Below, piece after piece: positions 34,035-39,253 of a stretch of 45,911 nucleotides of DNA. Source of the DNA: an uncultured Bacilli bacterium. Its GTDB lineage: Bacteria; Bacillota_I; Bacilli_A; RF39; UBA660. Location: NCBI GenBank assembly GCA_947627915.1, contig CANQXT010000004.1:1-45911 (forward strand), in the 5' to 3' direction. The position numbers were made by a program, and so were the translations under genes. Positions within the stretch are counted from its first letter, which is position 1. Every line of letters starts with the position of its first letter. The notes beneath the pieces were generated by a model. It worked only from the letters and a program-made list of their open reading frames with translations, searched no databases and was not told the DNA's origin.

Positions 34035-35102
34035 ATGTTTGAAAGATTAAATGATATTGTAAAAAAGTATGAAGAGTTAAAAGTTGAATTAACAAAAGAA
34101 GAAGTTTTAACTGATTATAATAAGTTAAAAAAACTTTCGAAAGAACAAAGTGATTTAGAAGAAATTGTTAATAAATATGAAGAATATAAAATGGCTAAGA
34201 ATGCTCTTACGGAAGCCGAATCTTTAGTTAATGATCCTGAATTTAAAGAGATAGCTTTAGGTGAAGTAGAAACATTAACTGAAAAATTAAAAACTCTTAA
34301 TAGTGAACTAGAGATTTTATTAGTACCTAAAGATGAAAATGATGGTAAGAATGTAATTATGGAAATAAGAGGAGCCGCTGGTGGAGATGAAGCTAATATC
34401 TTTGCTGGTGATTTATTTAGAATGTATTCTTATTATGCTGAAGAAAATGGTTGGAAAATTGAAGTATTAAATTCTATTGAAGGTGCTAGTGGAGGATATT
34501 CCCAAATTGAATATATGGTTAAAGGAGATAATGTATATTCAAAATTAAAATATGAAAGTGGTTCCCATCGTGTTCAAAGAGTACCGGAAACAGAAACTCA
34601 AGGAAGAGTTCATACTTCAACGGCAACTGTTTTAGTTATGCCAGAAGTTGAAGATGTTGATATTGAAGTTAAAGAAAGTGATTTAAAAATAGATGTTTAC
34701 CATTCAAGTGGTGCTGGTGGTCAATCAGTTAATACTTCTAATTCAGCAGTACGTATAACTCATATTCCAACTGGTGTAGTAGTAGCATGTCAAACCGAAA
34801 GAAGTCAACTTAAAAATAAAGAAAATGCCATGCGTCTATTAAAAATTAAGTTACACGATGAAATGAAGCAAAAACAAGAACAAGAAGTTGGAGCAGAAAG
34901 AAAAAGTAAAATCGGTACTGGTGATCGTTCTGAAAAAATAAGAACTTATAATTATCCTCAAAATAGAGTAACAGACCATCGTATTAATTTTTCTATTATG
35001 GAACTTGATCGAGTTATGGATGGTAATTTATCTCCAATTATTGAAGCCTTAATAACTGAAGATTTAAGACGTAAACTTGAAGGTAATAAAGAAAGTTTAT
35101 AA
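34035..35102 (+). CDS. prfA: Peptide chain release factor 1
   Basis: GGQ motif SSGAGGQSVNTSNSAVRITHIPTG; PETETQGRVHTSTATV (RF1 PxT region). Confidence 0.97.
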   Translation: MFERLNDIVKKYEELKVELTKEEVLTDYNKLKKLSKEQSDLEEIVNKYEEYKMAKNALTEAESLVNDPEFKEIALGEVETLTEKLKTLNSELEILLVPKDENDGKNVIMEIRGAAGGDEANIFAGDLFRMYSYYAEENGWKIEVLNSIEGASGGYSQIEYMVKGDNVYSKLKYESGSHRVQRVPETETQGRVHTSTATVLVMPEVEDVDIEVKESDLKIDVYHSSGAGGQSVNTSNSAVRITHIPTGVVVACQTERSQLKNKENAMRLLKIKLHDEMKQKQEQEVGAERKSKIGTGDRSEKIRTYNYPQNRVTDHRINFSIMELDRVMDGNLSPIIEALITEDLRRKLEGNKESL

Positions 35103-35103
35103 G

Positions 35104-35823
35104 ATGTCTTTAGAAGAATTATTAAAAAAGTATTTGCCTGAAAATAAATTAGAAGATGGATTAAAACGTTTAAATAATGGTGAACCAGTCCAATACATTA
35201 TTGGAAATGTTGAATTTTATAATTGTCTTATAAATGTTAATCGTCATGTTTTAATACCTCGTTTTGAAACAGAATATTTAGTCCAAAAAACAATTAAATA
35301 TTTACAAGAATTAAATATAATAAATCCTAGTATATTAGATATTGGTACAGGTAGTGGTTGTATTAGTATTGCTTTAAAAAAAAATATTAATTGTTTAGTT
35401 GAAGCTATAGATATAAGTAATGATGCTATAACGGTTGCTAACGATAATGCCAAGATGAATAATGTTGAAATTAATTTTATGGTAAAGGACATTAATAAAT
35501 TTGAAACATCTTCTAAATATGATTTAATTATTAGTAATCCACCTTATGTTTCTTATAATAAAAAAGTAGATGAAAAGACTAAATATGAACCTCAAAATGC
35601 TATATTTGCTAAAGAAGATGGTTTATATTTTTATAAAATTATCTTAGAAAAATTACATAATAATTTAAATATTAATCATTTAATTGCTTTTGAAATAGAT
35701 GATAAACAGGGAAATAAAATAAAAGAATTAGTTCAAAAATATTTACCCAATGATTGTGTTAAAATCGAAAAAGACTATAATAATTATGAGAGATATTTAT
35801 TTATAAGTAATAAAAAGATATAG
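35104..35823 (+). CDS. prmC: Release factor glutamine N5-methyltransferase
   Basis: IPRFETEYLV, LDIGTGSGCISIAL, NPPYV; track start 35077 trimmed to MSLEELL at 35104. Confidence 0.95.
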   Translation: MSLEELLKKYLPENKLEDGLKRLNNGEPVQYIIGNVEFYNCLINVNRHVLIPRFETEYLVQKTIKYLQELNIINPSILDIGTGSGCISIALKKNINCLVEAIDISNDAITVANDNAKMNNVEINFMVKDINKFETSSKYDLIISNPPYVSYNKKVDEKTKYEPQNAIFAKEDGLYFYKIILEKLHNNLNINHLIAFEIDDKQGNKIKELVQKYLPNDCVKIEKDYNNYERYLFISNKKI

Positions 35824-35830
35824 TAGTGTT

Positions 35831-35859
35831 AAATGTTGGTTGTTCCCAACATTTTTTTA
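35831..35859 (+). terminator. Intrinsic terminator after prmC
   Basis: AAATGTTGG-TTGTT-CCCAACATTT + T-run. Confidence 0.65.
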
Positions 35860-35903
35860 GCGAAAACTTGACACCGGGGGGGGTATTATATAATTATCTT
35901 ATA
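35847..35903 (+). repeat. 57-bp direct repeat, copy 1 (terminator arm + promoter with G8 spacer)
   Basis: CAACATTTTTTTAGCGAAAACTTGACACCGGGGGGGGTATTATATAATTATCTTATA; one mismatch to copy 2. Confidence 0.95.
35868..35894 (+). promoter_or_regulatory. Promoter with homopolymeric G8 in a 15-bp spacer
   Basis: TTGACA-CCGGGGGGGGTATTA-TATAAT. Confidence 0.75.
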
Positions 35904-35924
35904 GTAAGGGTAAGATGATTAATA

Positions 35925-37196
35925 ATGAAAAGTATTAACAAAAAAATAATAGTAACTATATTAGTAATCATAGAGATAATGTTAATAAATATAACATATA
36001 AATCATATAGTAATCGAATAATAGATGAAAAAGAAATAGAAAATAAAAGAGTAGCTATAAAAGTAGATAATGGAAATAATGAATATAAAGATAGTGAAAC
36101 ATTACCTGGAAGAGGATATGTATTAAATACAGAATTAACAGAATGTTTAGATATAGAAGGAAATAAAATAGAAAATATAAAATTAGATAGTAATGGAGAA
36201 AATATAACCATAACAGGAAGATATACAAGTTATTGTACAATATATTATTATTTACCAGAAAATAGAGAATATGACTATATAGGAGATTATCAAGTATTTA
36301 TAGCTCCAAAAGAAGGTAATTATAAAATAGAATTATGGGGAGCAAGTGGTGGTGGTGTTAATGGTGGAAAAGGAGCATATACGAAAGGAACAATTCGTTT
36401 AAATCAAAATGATAAATTGTATATTTATGTAGGTCAAATCGGAACATATAAAGCTTGGGCCTTTAATGGAGGTGGCCCAGGAGAATCAAATGGAGGAGGA
36501 GCAACTGATGTAAGATTAAATATATCTAATACTGGTAATTGGGATGATTTTGATTCCTTAAAATCCAGAATAATGGTTGCCTCAGGTGGAGGCGGAGGTA
36601 CAAATAATTCAAATATAGATTATACTAAATCCTACCAAAGAGGAGATGGAGGTACTTTATCAGGAATAGATGCAAGATTTTGTGCAGAATATCTTATTAA
36701 TGTACCATGCTCATATGATTTTAGTGGTCACGGAGGTTCTCAAACATCTGGTGGAAAACAAGGAGAAAAATTTAATAATGTTGTTGATCCATATGAAACA
36801 ATAGAAATGACTGGAAAATTTGGTAAAGGAGGATATGCTAGAAATTCACTTAATTTTGAATATACATCATCTGGTGGAGGAGGAGGTTACTATGGTGGTG
36901 GTCACGGAAATCATCCAGGTAATTCATGGACTGGTGGAGGCGGAGGTTCATCATATATCTCTGGTCACGAAGGTTGTGTAGCAATAAAAGAAGAATCAAC
37001 TGAAGAAAATGTTCAACCAAAAGATGGATGTACAGATGGAACAAAAGATATAAATTGCTCATACCATTATAGTAACAAAATATTTACAGAAACAGAAATG
37101 AAAGCAGGAAACGAAGAAATGCCAACTCATAGTGGTGATGGAAATATGACAGGTAATACTGGAAATGGTTATGCTAAAATAACATTTGTTAATTAA
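35925..37196 (+). CDS. Membrane-anchored surface protein: two-Cys module plus glycine-rich domain
   Basis: N-terminal signal anchor; PGRGYVLNTELTECLD...YTSYCTIYY; then GDYQVFIAPKEGNYKIELWGASGGGVNGGKGAYTKGTIRL and GGGGGG-rich segments. Confidence 0.8.
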   Translation: MKSINKKIIVTILVIIEIMLINITYKSYSNRIIDEKEIENKRVAIKVDNGNNEYKDSETLPGRGYVLNTELTECLDIEGNKIENIKLDSNGENITITGRYTSYCTIYYYLPENREYDYIGDYQVFIAPKEGNYKIELWGASGGGVNGGKGAYTKGTIRLNQNDKLYIYVGQIGTYKAWAFNGGGPGESNGGGATDVRLNISNTGNWDDFDSLKSRIMVASGGGGGTNNSNIDYTKSYQRGDGGTLSGIDARFCAEYLINVPCSYDFSGHGGSQTSGGKQGEKFNNVVDPYETIEMTGKFGKGGYARNSLNFEYTSSGGGGGYYGGGHGNHPGNSWTGGGGGSSYISGHEGCVAIKEESTEENVQPKDGCTDGTKDINCSYHYSNKIFTETEMKAGNEEMPTHSGDGNMTGNTGNGYAKITFVN

Positions 37197-37224
37197 CTCG
37201 TCAACGAAGACGATATAAAATAGA

Positions 37225-37266
37225 AACTTAACCCTGAAAGAGAATAACTCTCTTTCTTTTTAAGTT
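37225..37266 (+). terminator. Intrinsic terminator after glycine-rich protein gene
   Basis: GAAAGAG...CTCTTTC + T5, outer AACTTAA/TTAAGTT. Confidence 0.6.
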
Positions 37267-37308
37267 AAAGTTCGTCAAAATAAGACAAAATATGTCAAAA
37301 TTATCCCC

Positions 37309-37337
37309 TTTACAAAAAGGGAATTATGTAATTTAAT
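37309..37337 (+). promoter_or_regulatory. Candidate promoter of the small toxin-like ORF
   Basis: TTTACA - 17 bp - TTTAAT. Confidence 0.45.
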
Positions 37338-37419
37338 AGTAACTTGAAGTGTTGAACTGGCGCCGCCGAATCAATTTTTTCTCAGGGGGTTTCCTTTTGA
37401 GGGAGGTGGGTGAAGTAAG

Positions 37420-37527
37420 ATGAAAACAAGAAATTTAATAAAAGTATTGCTAGTAATTATTTTTCTACTATTAGTTGTGATATTAGAAAAAGACGCCGTC
37501 CGAATATTTGAATTAATATTCGGATAG
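37420..37527 (+). CDS. 35-aa hydrophobic peptide, candidate type I toxin
   Basis: MKTRNLIKVLLVIIFLLLVVILEKDAVRIFELIFG*; GGGAGGTGGG upstream; stop codon inside a strong hairpin. Confidence 0.6.
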   Translation: MKTRNLIKVLLVIIFLLLVVILEKDAVRIFELIFG

Positions 37528-37566
37528 CGTCAGTCTATAAATAGGCGGCGTGAAATTCACACTTCC
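37487..37566 (-). ncRNA. Candidate antisense RNA (antitoxin-like) overlapping the 3' half of the small ORF
   Basis: Minus-strand TTGTAC-17-TATACT at 37601..37573, then GACGC-UAU-CCGAAUAUU-loop-AAUAUUCGG-ACG-GCGUC + U5 ending ~37487. Confidence 0.5.
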
Positions 37567-37582
37567 TACTTTAGTATATCTC

Positions 37583-37610
37583 AAAAATGTTGATTGTACA
37601 ACATTTTTTT
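37583..37610 (+). terminator. Intrinsic terminator after small ORF
   Basis: AAATGTTG-ATTGTA-CAACATTT + T-run. Confidence 0.6.
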
Positions 37611-37655
37611 AACGAAAACTTGACACCGGGGGGGGTATTATATAATTATCTTATA
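37599..37655 (+). repeat. 57-bp direct repeat, copy 2
   Basis: CAACATTTTTTTAACGAAAACTTGACACCGGGGGGGGTATTATATAATTATCTTATA. Confidence 0.95.
37620..37646 (+). promoter_or_regulatory. Promoter with homopolymeric G8 in a 15-bp spacer, copy 2
   Basis: TTGACA-CCGGGGGGGGTATTA-TATAAT. Confidence 0.75.
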
Positions 37656-37711
37656 AAATAGAGAGAAGCAAAATAGATAAAAGTTATCAACATAAAAGAA
37701 AGGGTTAAGTA

Positions 37712-38686
37712 ATGAAGAAGATAATTATAGGAGTACTAGTAATAATAGAAATATTTTCTTTATATATGATGTATCAAAGTAATGAAACCAAAAAATTAAA
37801 TGAAGTAAATATAAAAGATAATAAAATAAATAAAAATACTTTTGCCATATATTGGGATGAAAAAGGAACTGGAACATATACAGAATATACTGAAGAATTA
37901 TTGCCTAGTGAAGGTTATCATTTAAATTATTATAAATCAGAATGTTTAGATGTTGAAGGCAATAAAATAGCAAATACAATAAATTATAATAATGGAAATA
38001 TAACATTAAATAGTAAATATACTAGTTATTGTACTTTATATTATGATATGGAAACATATTTTGAAGATTTAAGTGGTAATAATAGAGGTATATCTATAGA
38101 TAAAGATAATGTTACAATAACTGATGAAGGTATAAGTATAAATACAGATGAGATAGAAACTAATATTTCACCACAAGAATTAAGTAATACATTTTCAGTT
38201 GTAACTAGATTTAAAATAAATGATTCTTTGGATGTTTCTAGTTATGAAGCAGTACTTTATCATGGAATATATAGAAGTAATTCTACTGTTTCTTCTGATT
38301 ATGAAAGTCATCATCAACTTACAATTGTATACTACGATAATATATGCCATATATATACAGAATTTGGTATTGGTGATGGGCATATAAATTGTTATGGAAA
38401 TAATATAGAAAAAAATGTATTTTATACAATTACAATAGTCTATGATAATGGAACAATAAAATTTTATAACAATGGTAATTTAGAAAATACAACTAATATG
38501 AATCAAAAATGGATAATTCCAATAGATAATTATAAATTAGGTTCTTTAAATACATTCTCAGATTTCTTAATCTATAATAGAGTACTAACAGATGAAGAAA
38601 TAAAAGATAATTTTTCTAATACCATAGATTTGTATAAAATTAATAAACAAGATTTAGCTGTATTTTATAAATTTTCAAATTTTTAA
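37712..38686 (+). CDS. Membrane-anchored surface protein: two-Cys module plus LamG/concanavalin-like domain
   Basis: Signal anchor; PSEGYHLNYYKSECLD...YTSYCTLYY; LamG-like tail SNTFSVVTRFKIND...GTIKFYNNGNLE...DFLIYNRVLTDEEIKDNF. Confidence 0.8.
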   Translation: MKKIIIGVLVIIEIFSLYMMYQSNETKKLNEVNIKDNKINKNTFAIYWDEKGTGTYTEYTEELLPSEGYHLNYYKSECLDVEGNKIANTINYNNGNITLNSKYTSYCTLYYDMETYFEDLSGNNRGISIDKDNVTITDEGISINTDEIETNISPQELSNTFSVVTRFKINDSLDVSSYEAVLYHGIYRSNSTVSSDYESHHQLTIVYYDNICHIYTEFGIGDGHINCYGNNIEKNVFYTITIVYDNGTIKFYNNGNLENTTNMNQKWIIPIDNYKLGSLNTFSDFLIYNRVLTDEEIKDNFSNTIDLYKINKQDLAVFYKFSNF

Positions 38687-38743
38687 ATTCTCTTTCTTGT
38701 ATAAAATTATTATTATTAAAACAATATATACTTGGTGATAAGT

Positions 38744-39253
38744 ATGAAAAAAATAATAATAATTTTATTTTTTATTGTTGTTGGATTAGTATTAGTTAAT
38801 GAAAAAGAAAATATATTAATACCTGATAATGCTATAAGATTTAGAATAATAGCTAATAGTAATTCTAATGAAGATCAAGAATTAAAAAGAACAATAAAAA
38901 AAGATGTTGAAAAAGAACTATTTACTTTATTAAAAGATGTTAATAATATTAATGATGCTAGAGAAGTTATAAATAATAATCTTAATAAAATTGATAATAT
39001 TGTTAAGAGTTATAATGTTTCTTATGATATTAATTATGGTAATAATTATTTTCCTTCTAAAGAATATAAAGGAGTAACTTATGATGAAGGTAATTATGAA
39101 AGTTTAGTAATAAAATTAGGTAGTGGTTTAGGAGATAATTGGTGGTGTGTTTTATTTCCTCCATTATGTTTATTAGATGAACAAAATAATCTTAATAATT
39201 ATGAATATGAATTTTATACTAATAAAATTATTAATAAATTTATAAATAAATAA
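38744..39253 (+). CDS. spoIIR: Stage II sporulation protein R
   Basis: IRFRIIANSNSNEDQELKRTIKKDV...GDNWWCVLFPPLCLLDE; follows prfA/prmC as in Bacilli; start moved to ATG 38744. Confidence 0.9.
   Translation: MKKIIIILFFIVVGLVLVNEKENILIPDNAIRFRIIANSNSNEDQELKRTIKKDVEKELFTLLKDVNNINDAREVINNNLNKIDNIVKSYNVSYDINYGNNYFPSKEYKGVTYDEGNYESLVIKLGSGLGDNWWCVLFPPLCLLDEQNNLNNYEYEFYTNKIINKFINK

Follow-up and report, generated by a model that had tools for sequence, protein, structure and literature searches.

The window, by which we mean the whole stretch of 45,911 nucleotides analysed here, is contig 4 of a 1.29-Mb, 90-contig MAG of an uncultured Bacilli bacterium. Between prmC and spoIIR (window 35077-39253) it encodes two predicted surface proteins, and these genes, their promoters and the hairpins described below lie on the forward strand. 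The first gene (35925..37196) encodes a 423-aa protein with an N-terminal hydrophobic anchor (19-residue hydropathy mean up to 2.1), a shared module and an ALK/LTK-type glycine-rich domain. An earlier note on this DNA had predicted a membrane-anchored glycine-rich product, a description borne out by the hydrophobic N-terminal segment and a match to PF12810 (E 9.7e-46). The product of the second gene (37712..38686; 324 aa) starts with the same N-terminal module and ends in a concanavalin/laminin-G-like domain (PF13385). The open reading frames are clean under translation table 11, so that a recoded genome (table 4) need not be invoked.

The promoter of the first gene (copy 1) consists of the -35 hexamer TTGACA (35868-35873), the bases CC, a run of eight Gs (35876-35883), the bases TATTA and the -10 hexamer TATAAT (35889-35894), with a spacer of 15 bp. 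The earlier note had reported consensus hexamers around a 15-bp spacer with a G8 run, which is exact (35868-35894), and its arithmetic, by which G8, G9 and G10 correspond to spacers of 15, 16 and 17 bp, holds as well. Copy 2 (TTGACACC-G8-TATTATATAAT, 37620-37646, with the G run at 37628-37635) precedes the second gene and is letter-identical to copy 1. The two runs give four overlapping G7 matches in the window (0.15 expected). In 100 dinucleotide shuffles of the window this number was never reached, and a chance origin of the poly-G promoters was rejected. Reversed-pattern controls gave no matches in almost all genomes scanned.

A terminator-like hairpin with a T run is found directly 5' of each copy. 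The first (35833..35858; fold -10 kcal/mol, z -3.9) marks the end of the prfA-prmC unit and abuts copy 1; the second (37583..37610; fold -7.8 kcal/mol, z -3.2) precedes copy 2. Neither hairpin is in the list produced by a consensus scan, which also offered TTGACA and AATTAT, 18 bp apart, as an alternative promoter pair. Judging from its predicted fold, the hairpin at 35833..35858 appears to shield the first surface gene from read-through, and, given the position of the two hairpins, each gene with its promoter seems to form an insulated unit. In Rfam, the leader matched nothing but an animal scaRNA family, with a score below threshold, and a known RNA was rejected. Promoter, leader and N-terminal module together form a block common to the family copies (35864..36240), as seen in alignments with C83, C35 and C23, and the sequences diverge after it.

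The prmC-spoIIR gap, compared between the window and L252-L281, is an insertion hot spot: a spoIIR-like gene directly follows prmC in five genomes (G002, G007, G020, G022 and G025), and different surface-protein or other genes occupy the gap elsewhere. Between the tandem poly-G surface genes (window 37356-37560) there is also a repeat of ~200-250 bp with GGCGCCGCC...GGCGGC ends, of which five copies were seen and which is present at L015, L018, L025 and L028 as well. This repeat holds a 35-aa hydrophobic ORF (37421 onwards) with only a weak Pfam match, to DUF6903, and is reminiscent of type I toxin loci.

Pattern searches of the genome, on which all counts given here for it are based, identified 38 copies of the promoter when up to two mismatches were allowed. 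The genome contains 43 runs of at least seven Gs, 42 of which are located in near-identical -35/-10 spacers and one in a coding region; C-tract versions were searched for in this genome. The 39 complete spacer runs are flanked by TTGACACC in 35 cases, by TTGACTCTC in two, and by TTGACACTC and TTGATTTTC in one each, and three further copies of the same promoter are cut by contig ends (C25, C49 and C83). Contigs often stop near poly-G promoters, as expected of a repeat. The TTGACA hexamer is the same in 35 complete copies, TATAAT is kept in the copies and in relatives, and wherever the downstream core TATTATATAATTATCTTATA occurs exactly in this genome (35 copies), it comes after a run of at least seven Gs. 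Both copies noticed earlier are real, but they are two of approximately 42 in the genome. The complete runs comprise one G7, 34 G8, three G9 and one G10.

The lone run outside a spacer is a G9 (G000:C33:3057-3065, L214) near the start of a 183-aa hexapeptide-repeat gene of the acetyltransferase type, and it is in frame in the assembly. This run is a candidate frame-shift switch that would turn a gene for surface-sugar modification on and off.

The main promoter type is followed by 31 readable ORFs, all of which encode anchored proteins with one common N-terminal module, that is, a short positive stretch and a single hydrophobic stretch followed by a module of ~110 residues. The products that the poly-G promoters control are presumably exposed on the surface. 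The C-terminal parts diverge and are either glycine-rich (PF12810, ALK_LTK_GRD) or laminin-G/concanavalin-like (PF13385); other family members end in a MYRYQG...RPVFYL module without a Pfam match or are represented by a short form of ~146 aa. Many poly-G promoters precede such short forms of 146-151 aa (L013, L014, L015, L018, L019, L021, L029 and L033), which consist almost solely of the N-terminal module and end in ...NRT(N/S)CT(N/D)IQCAIDELYKA(N/S)(F/Y). These may already be complete, or they may be acceptors to which new C-terminal modules are added. The N-terminal module was detected in all 38 genomes of the genus that were searched, with 3 to 57 copies in each and 41 in this genome. In several species, promoters lacking a G run also precede it, which means that the gene family is not invariably tied to the poly-G promoter.

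With the patterns used, poly-G spacer promoters were detected in 27 of the 38 genomes of the genus, 20 of which have at least four copies. Among 288 genomes across the order, 17 genomes of the same family outside the genus have at least one such promoter, and five further genera of the family carry 3 to 36 copies per genome. The bases that flank the run are lineage-specific, but all promoters follow one layout, in which TTGAC is followed by 0-4 bases, a run of G8-G10, 5-8 bases that are mostly AT-rich, and TATAAT. This class of poly-G spacer promoters, with up to ~40 copies per genome, is widespread in one family of uncultured Bacilli of the gut and serves surface-protein genes. Those relatives that have names are uncultured Bacilli from 'Lapin' (rabbit) samples.

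Several matches were found farther afield. A few distant MAGs, including Elusimicrobiota and Candidatus Paceibacterota records, possess poly-G spacer promoters of G8-G10 in front of apparent secreted or surface proteins (L139, L116, L157, L159, L130 and L163), which suggests repeated independent origin of poly-G promoters. One locus (L219, G035:C4) consists of a tandem array of genes for C-terminally anchored surface-type proteins of 722-1262 aa with a weak VWA match, the first ORF being cut by the end of the locus; each gene of the array stands behind TTGACC-G8-10-TATAAT, a different promoter design with a different gene family. Matches in an Oscillospiraceae MAG (L141, transporter-like ORF) and at L035 were judged to be due to chance. 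Viral carriage was rejected, the single IMG/VR match being a G6 run before a 100-aa ORF that was judged unrelated.

Tract length varies between copies whose surroundings do not. The copy at C83 (G9) and the window copy (G8) have no substitution in the 167 bp after the tract, and C83 (G9) and C35 (G8) are identical over 257 bp after it. In G004, 25 promoters agree in all other core bases and comprise 12 with G8 and 13 with G9, and the 38 promoters of one flank type in G034 range from G6 to G10. The orthologous prmC slot has G8/G8 in this genome, G10/G8 in G034 and G8 in G035. Across 342 promoters in 19 genomes other than this one, there are two G6, 17 G7, 208 G8, 100 G9, 14 G10 and one G11, and runs of G5-G10 were recorded in a set of 173 copies from 11 genomes, so that lengths in relatives extend from G5 to G11. 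A pattern that permitted interruptions recovered no interrupted run among these 173 copies. Differences in tract length without flanking substitutions indicate that indels in the tract outpace substitutions around it. As far as these comparisons of assembled copies tell, tract length is hypervariable, whereas the rest of the promoter is homogenised, and the pattern of lengths among copies and species is that expected from slippage. For each locus, a MAG consensus reports a single tract length, and lengths may have been merged or misplaced when the repeated promoters were assembled; most of them should, however, be anchored by the sequence 20-40 bp upstream, which is mostly unique.

The spacing of the poly-G promoters differs from that of ordinary promoters in the same genomes. 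In ~1.24 Mb of loci, TTGACN/TATAAT pairs without poly-G peak at 17 bp, with 8, 18 and 7 sites at 16, 17 and 18 bp and 2, 2 and 0 sites at 14, 15 and 19 bp, whereas 123 of the 342 poly-G promoters have spacers of 15 bp, 176 of 16 bp and 10 of 17 bp; the mode is 15 bp in this species and 16 bp in several others. Such promoters would be kept one or two bases below the optimum, a spacing at which the gain or loss of one G should have its largest effect, and we infer that G8 (15 bp) is a low state and that G9 and G10 are high states. The same figures can be read differently, with the run as a stiff, differently twisted structural spacer for which 15-16 bp is optimal, the promoters being constitutive or otherwise regulated and one-base changes nearly neutral. 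Poly-G DNA geometry could shift the spacing optimum, and the recurrence of 15-16 bp across many lineages, against the ordinary 17 bp, may reflect compensation instead of a poised switch. We consider this explanation unlikely because it neither explains the association of the run with surface-protein genes nor accounts for the absence of interrupted, equally stiff runs; moreover, the poly-G promoter of Treponema pallidum TP0126 works best at 17 bp (PMC7864442).

Another possibility is that the run is a regulator site of fixed length within an ordinary regulon, its length differences being noise. Operators of CsoR/RcnR-type repressors contain G runs, and this genome encodes a CsoR-family protein; the G8 mode is tight in many species and the run is always beside the -35 box. 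However, the bases beside the run vary among lineages and copies while the pure run stays, and a binding site would tolerate some substitutions, yet none of the 173 copies has an interrupted run. In addition, the csoR locus has no run beyond G5/C5. Assignment of the poly-G promoters to CsoR/RcnR operators is accordingly disfavoured, and a regulator site of any kind appears quite improbable. Still less credible is the proposal that the block of promoter and N-terminus serves mainly as a recombination handle by which gene conversion spreads C-terminal modules and promoter alleles, so that differences in length would travel by recombination with no slippage switch: the copies are indeed near-identical from AAAACTTGACA through the N-terminal module before they diverge, and species differ in whether the prmC-spoIIR slot holds any genes and in which ones, but recombination accounts for this homogeneity and not for length differences confined to the tract or for the retention of a pure G run. 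Recombination or a structural spacer may also operate together with slippage.

We therefore favour the reading, with a probability of about 0.74, that the promoter in the window belongs to a family of phase-variable promoters dispersed over the genome. Every member would be a housekeeping-type promoter with a pure run of ~8-10 Gs beside the -35 box. Slipped-strand mispairing would add or remove a G and move the -35/-10 spacing among ~14, 15, 16 and 17 bp, and this shift would alter transcription of the surface-protein gene behind the promoter. Slippage within populations and the control of expression by tract length are thus the presumed parts of this scheme. As a genomic signature, the predicted phase variation is strongly supported. 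Counting against it are the tight clustering of lengths (34 of 39 complete runs are G8 in this genome, and the length is nearly invariant in G230 and G233) and the fact that some family genes are under ordinary promoters in other species. A further point against it is the presence of MutS, which would slow slippage: MutS_I was found in an 856-aa open frame of this genome, and lack of mismatch repair was accordingly discarded as the driver of slippage.

The poly-G promoters share with porA and TP0126 a pure homopolymer between good -35 and -10 hexamers. In Neisseria meningitidis porA, expression is graded with the length of a poly-G tract between -10 and -35 (PMC3639595). Like the promoters described here, that of porA belongs to a surface-protein gene and has a spacer with a pure run of Gs, but porA is one gene per genome as opposed to ~40 copies here, and the proteins and the phylum are unrelated. 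For T. pallidum, TP0126 is most active when the run gives a distance of 17 bp, and tprL has 7-11 Gs, mostly 9, with one length dominating the population and G8 more active than G10 (PMC7864442). This tight distribution shows that phase variation is compatible with one predominant length. The likeness to TP0126 and the tpr genes extends to poly-G runs of similar length in surface-protein promoters. The poly-G promoters of T. pallidum occupy a handful of loci and are individually different, unlike the single homogenised promoter with a common leader and N-terminus described here. In Mycoplasma hyorhinis, a poly-A tract is present in every vlp promoter (PMC10502178). As in the vlp system, each gene of a multigene surface family has its own homopolymer-bearing promoter. 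The vlp genes form a clustered locus of few genes that encode lipoproteins behind poly-A tracts, whereas the promoters studied here have poly-G and are dispersed over the genome and over several genera. A vlp-type system was rejected, since the tract consists of G and the sequences examined have no lipobox cysteine after the hydrophobic stretch. The promoter class is thus already known (porA, TP0126, vlp), and what appear to be new are the organism and the scale; we found no report on these promoters in this lineage in the limited literature covered.

Independent switching of ~40 genes would lead the cells of a population to display surface proteins in many combinations. We give somewhat better than even odds to the broader proposal of a genome-wide combinatorial coat of ~10-40 modular anchored proteins, each with its own slippage-switched poly-G promoter set below the optimum, in which promoter and N-terminus are homogenised and cassettes move through hot-spot slots. 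If true, this coat would rank with the larger known repertoires of promoter-type phase variation, and its bearers are uncultured gut Bacilli that are not known as pathogens. The ~40 near-identical natural promoters per genome, which differ almost only in spacer length, constitute a ready-made experiment on spacing and transcription, and the presence of tens of poly-G surface-gene promoters in a gut family makes phase variation directly testable with existing metagenome reads. If confirmed, the system would illustrate a way in which symbionts of the gut could vary their coat to counter antibodies or phages.
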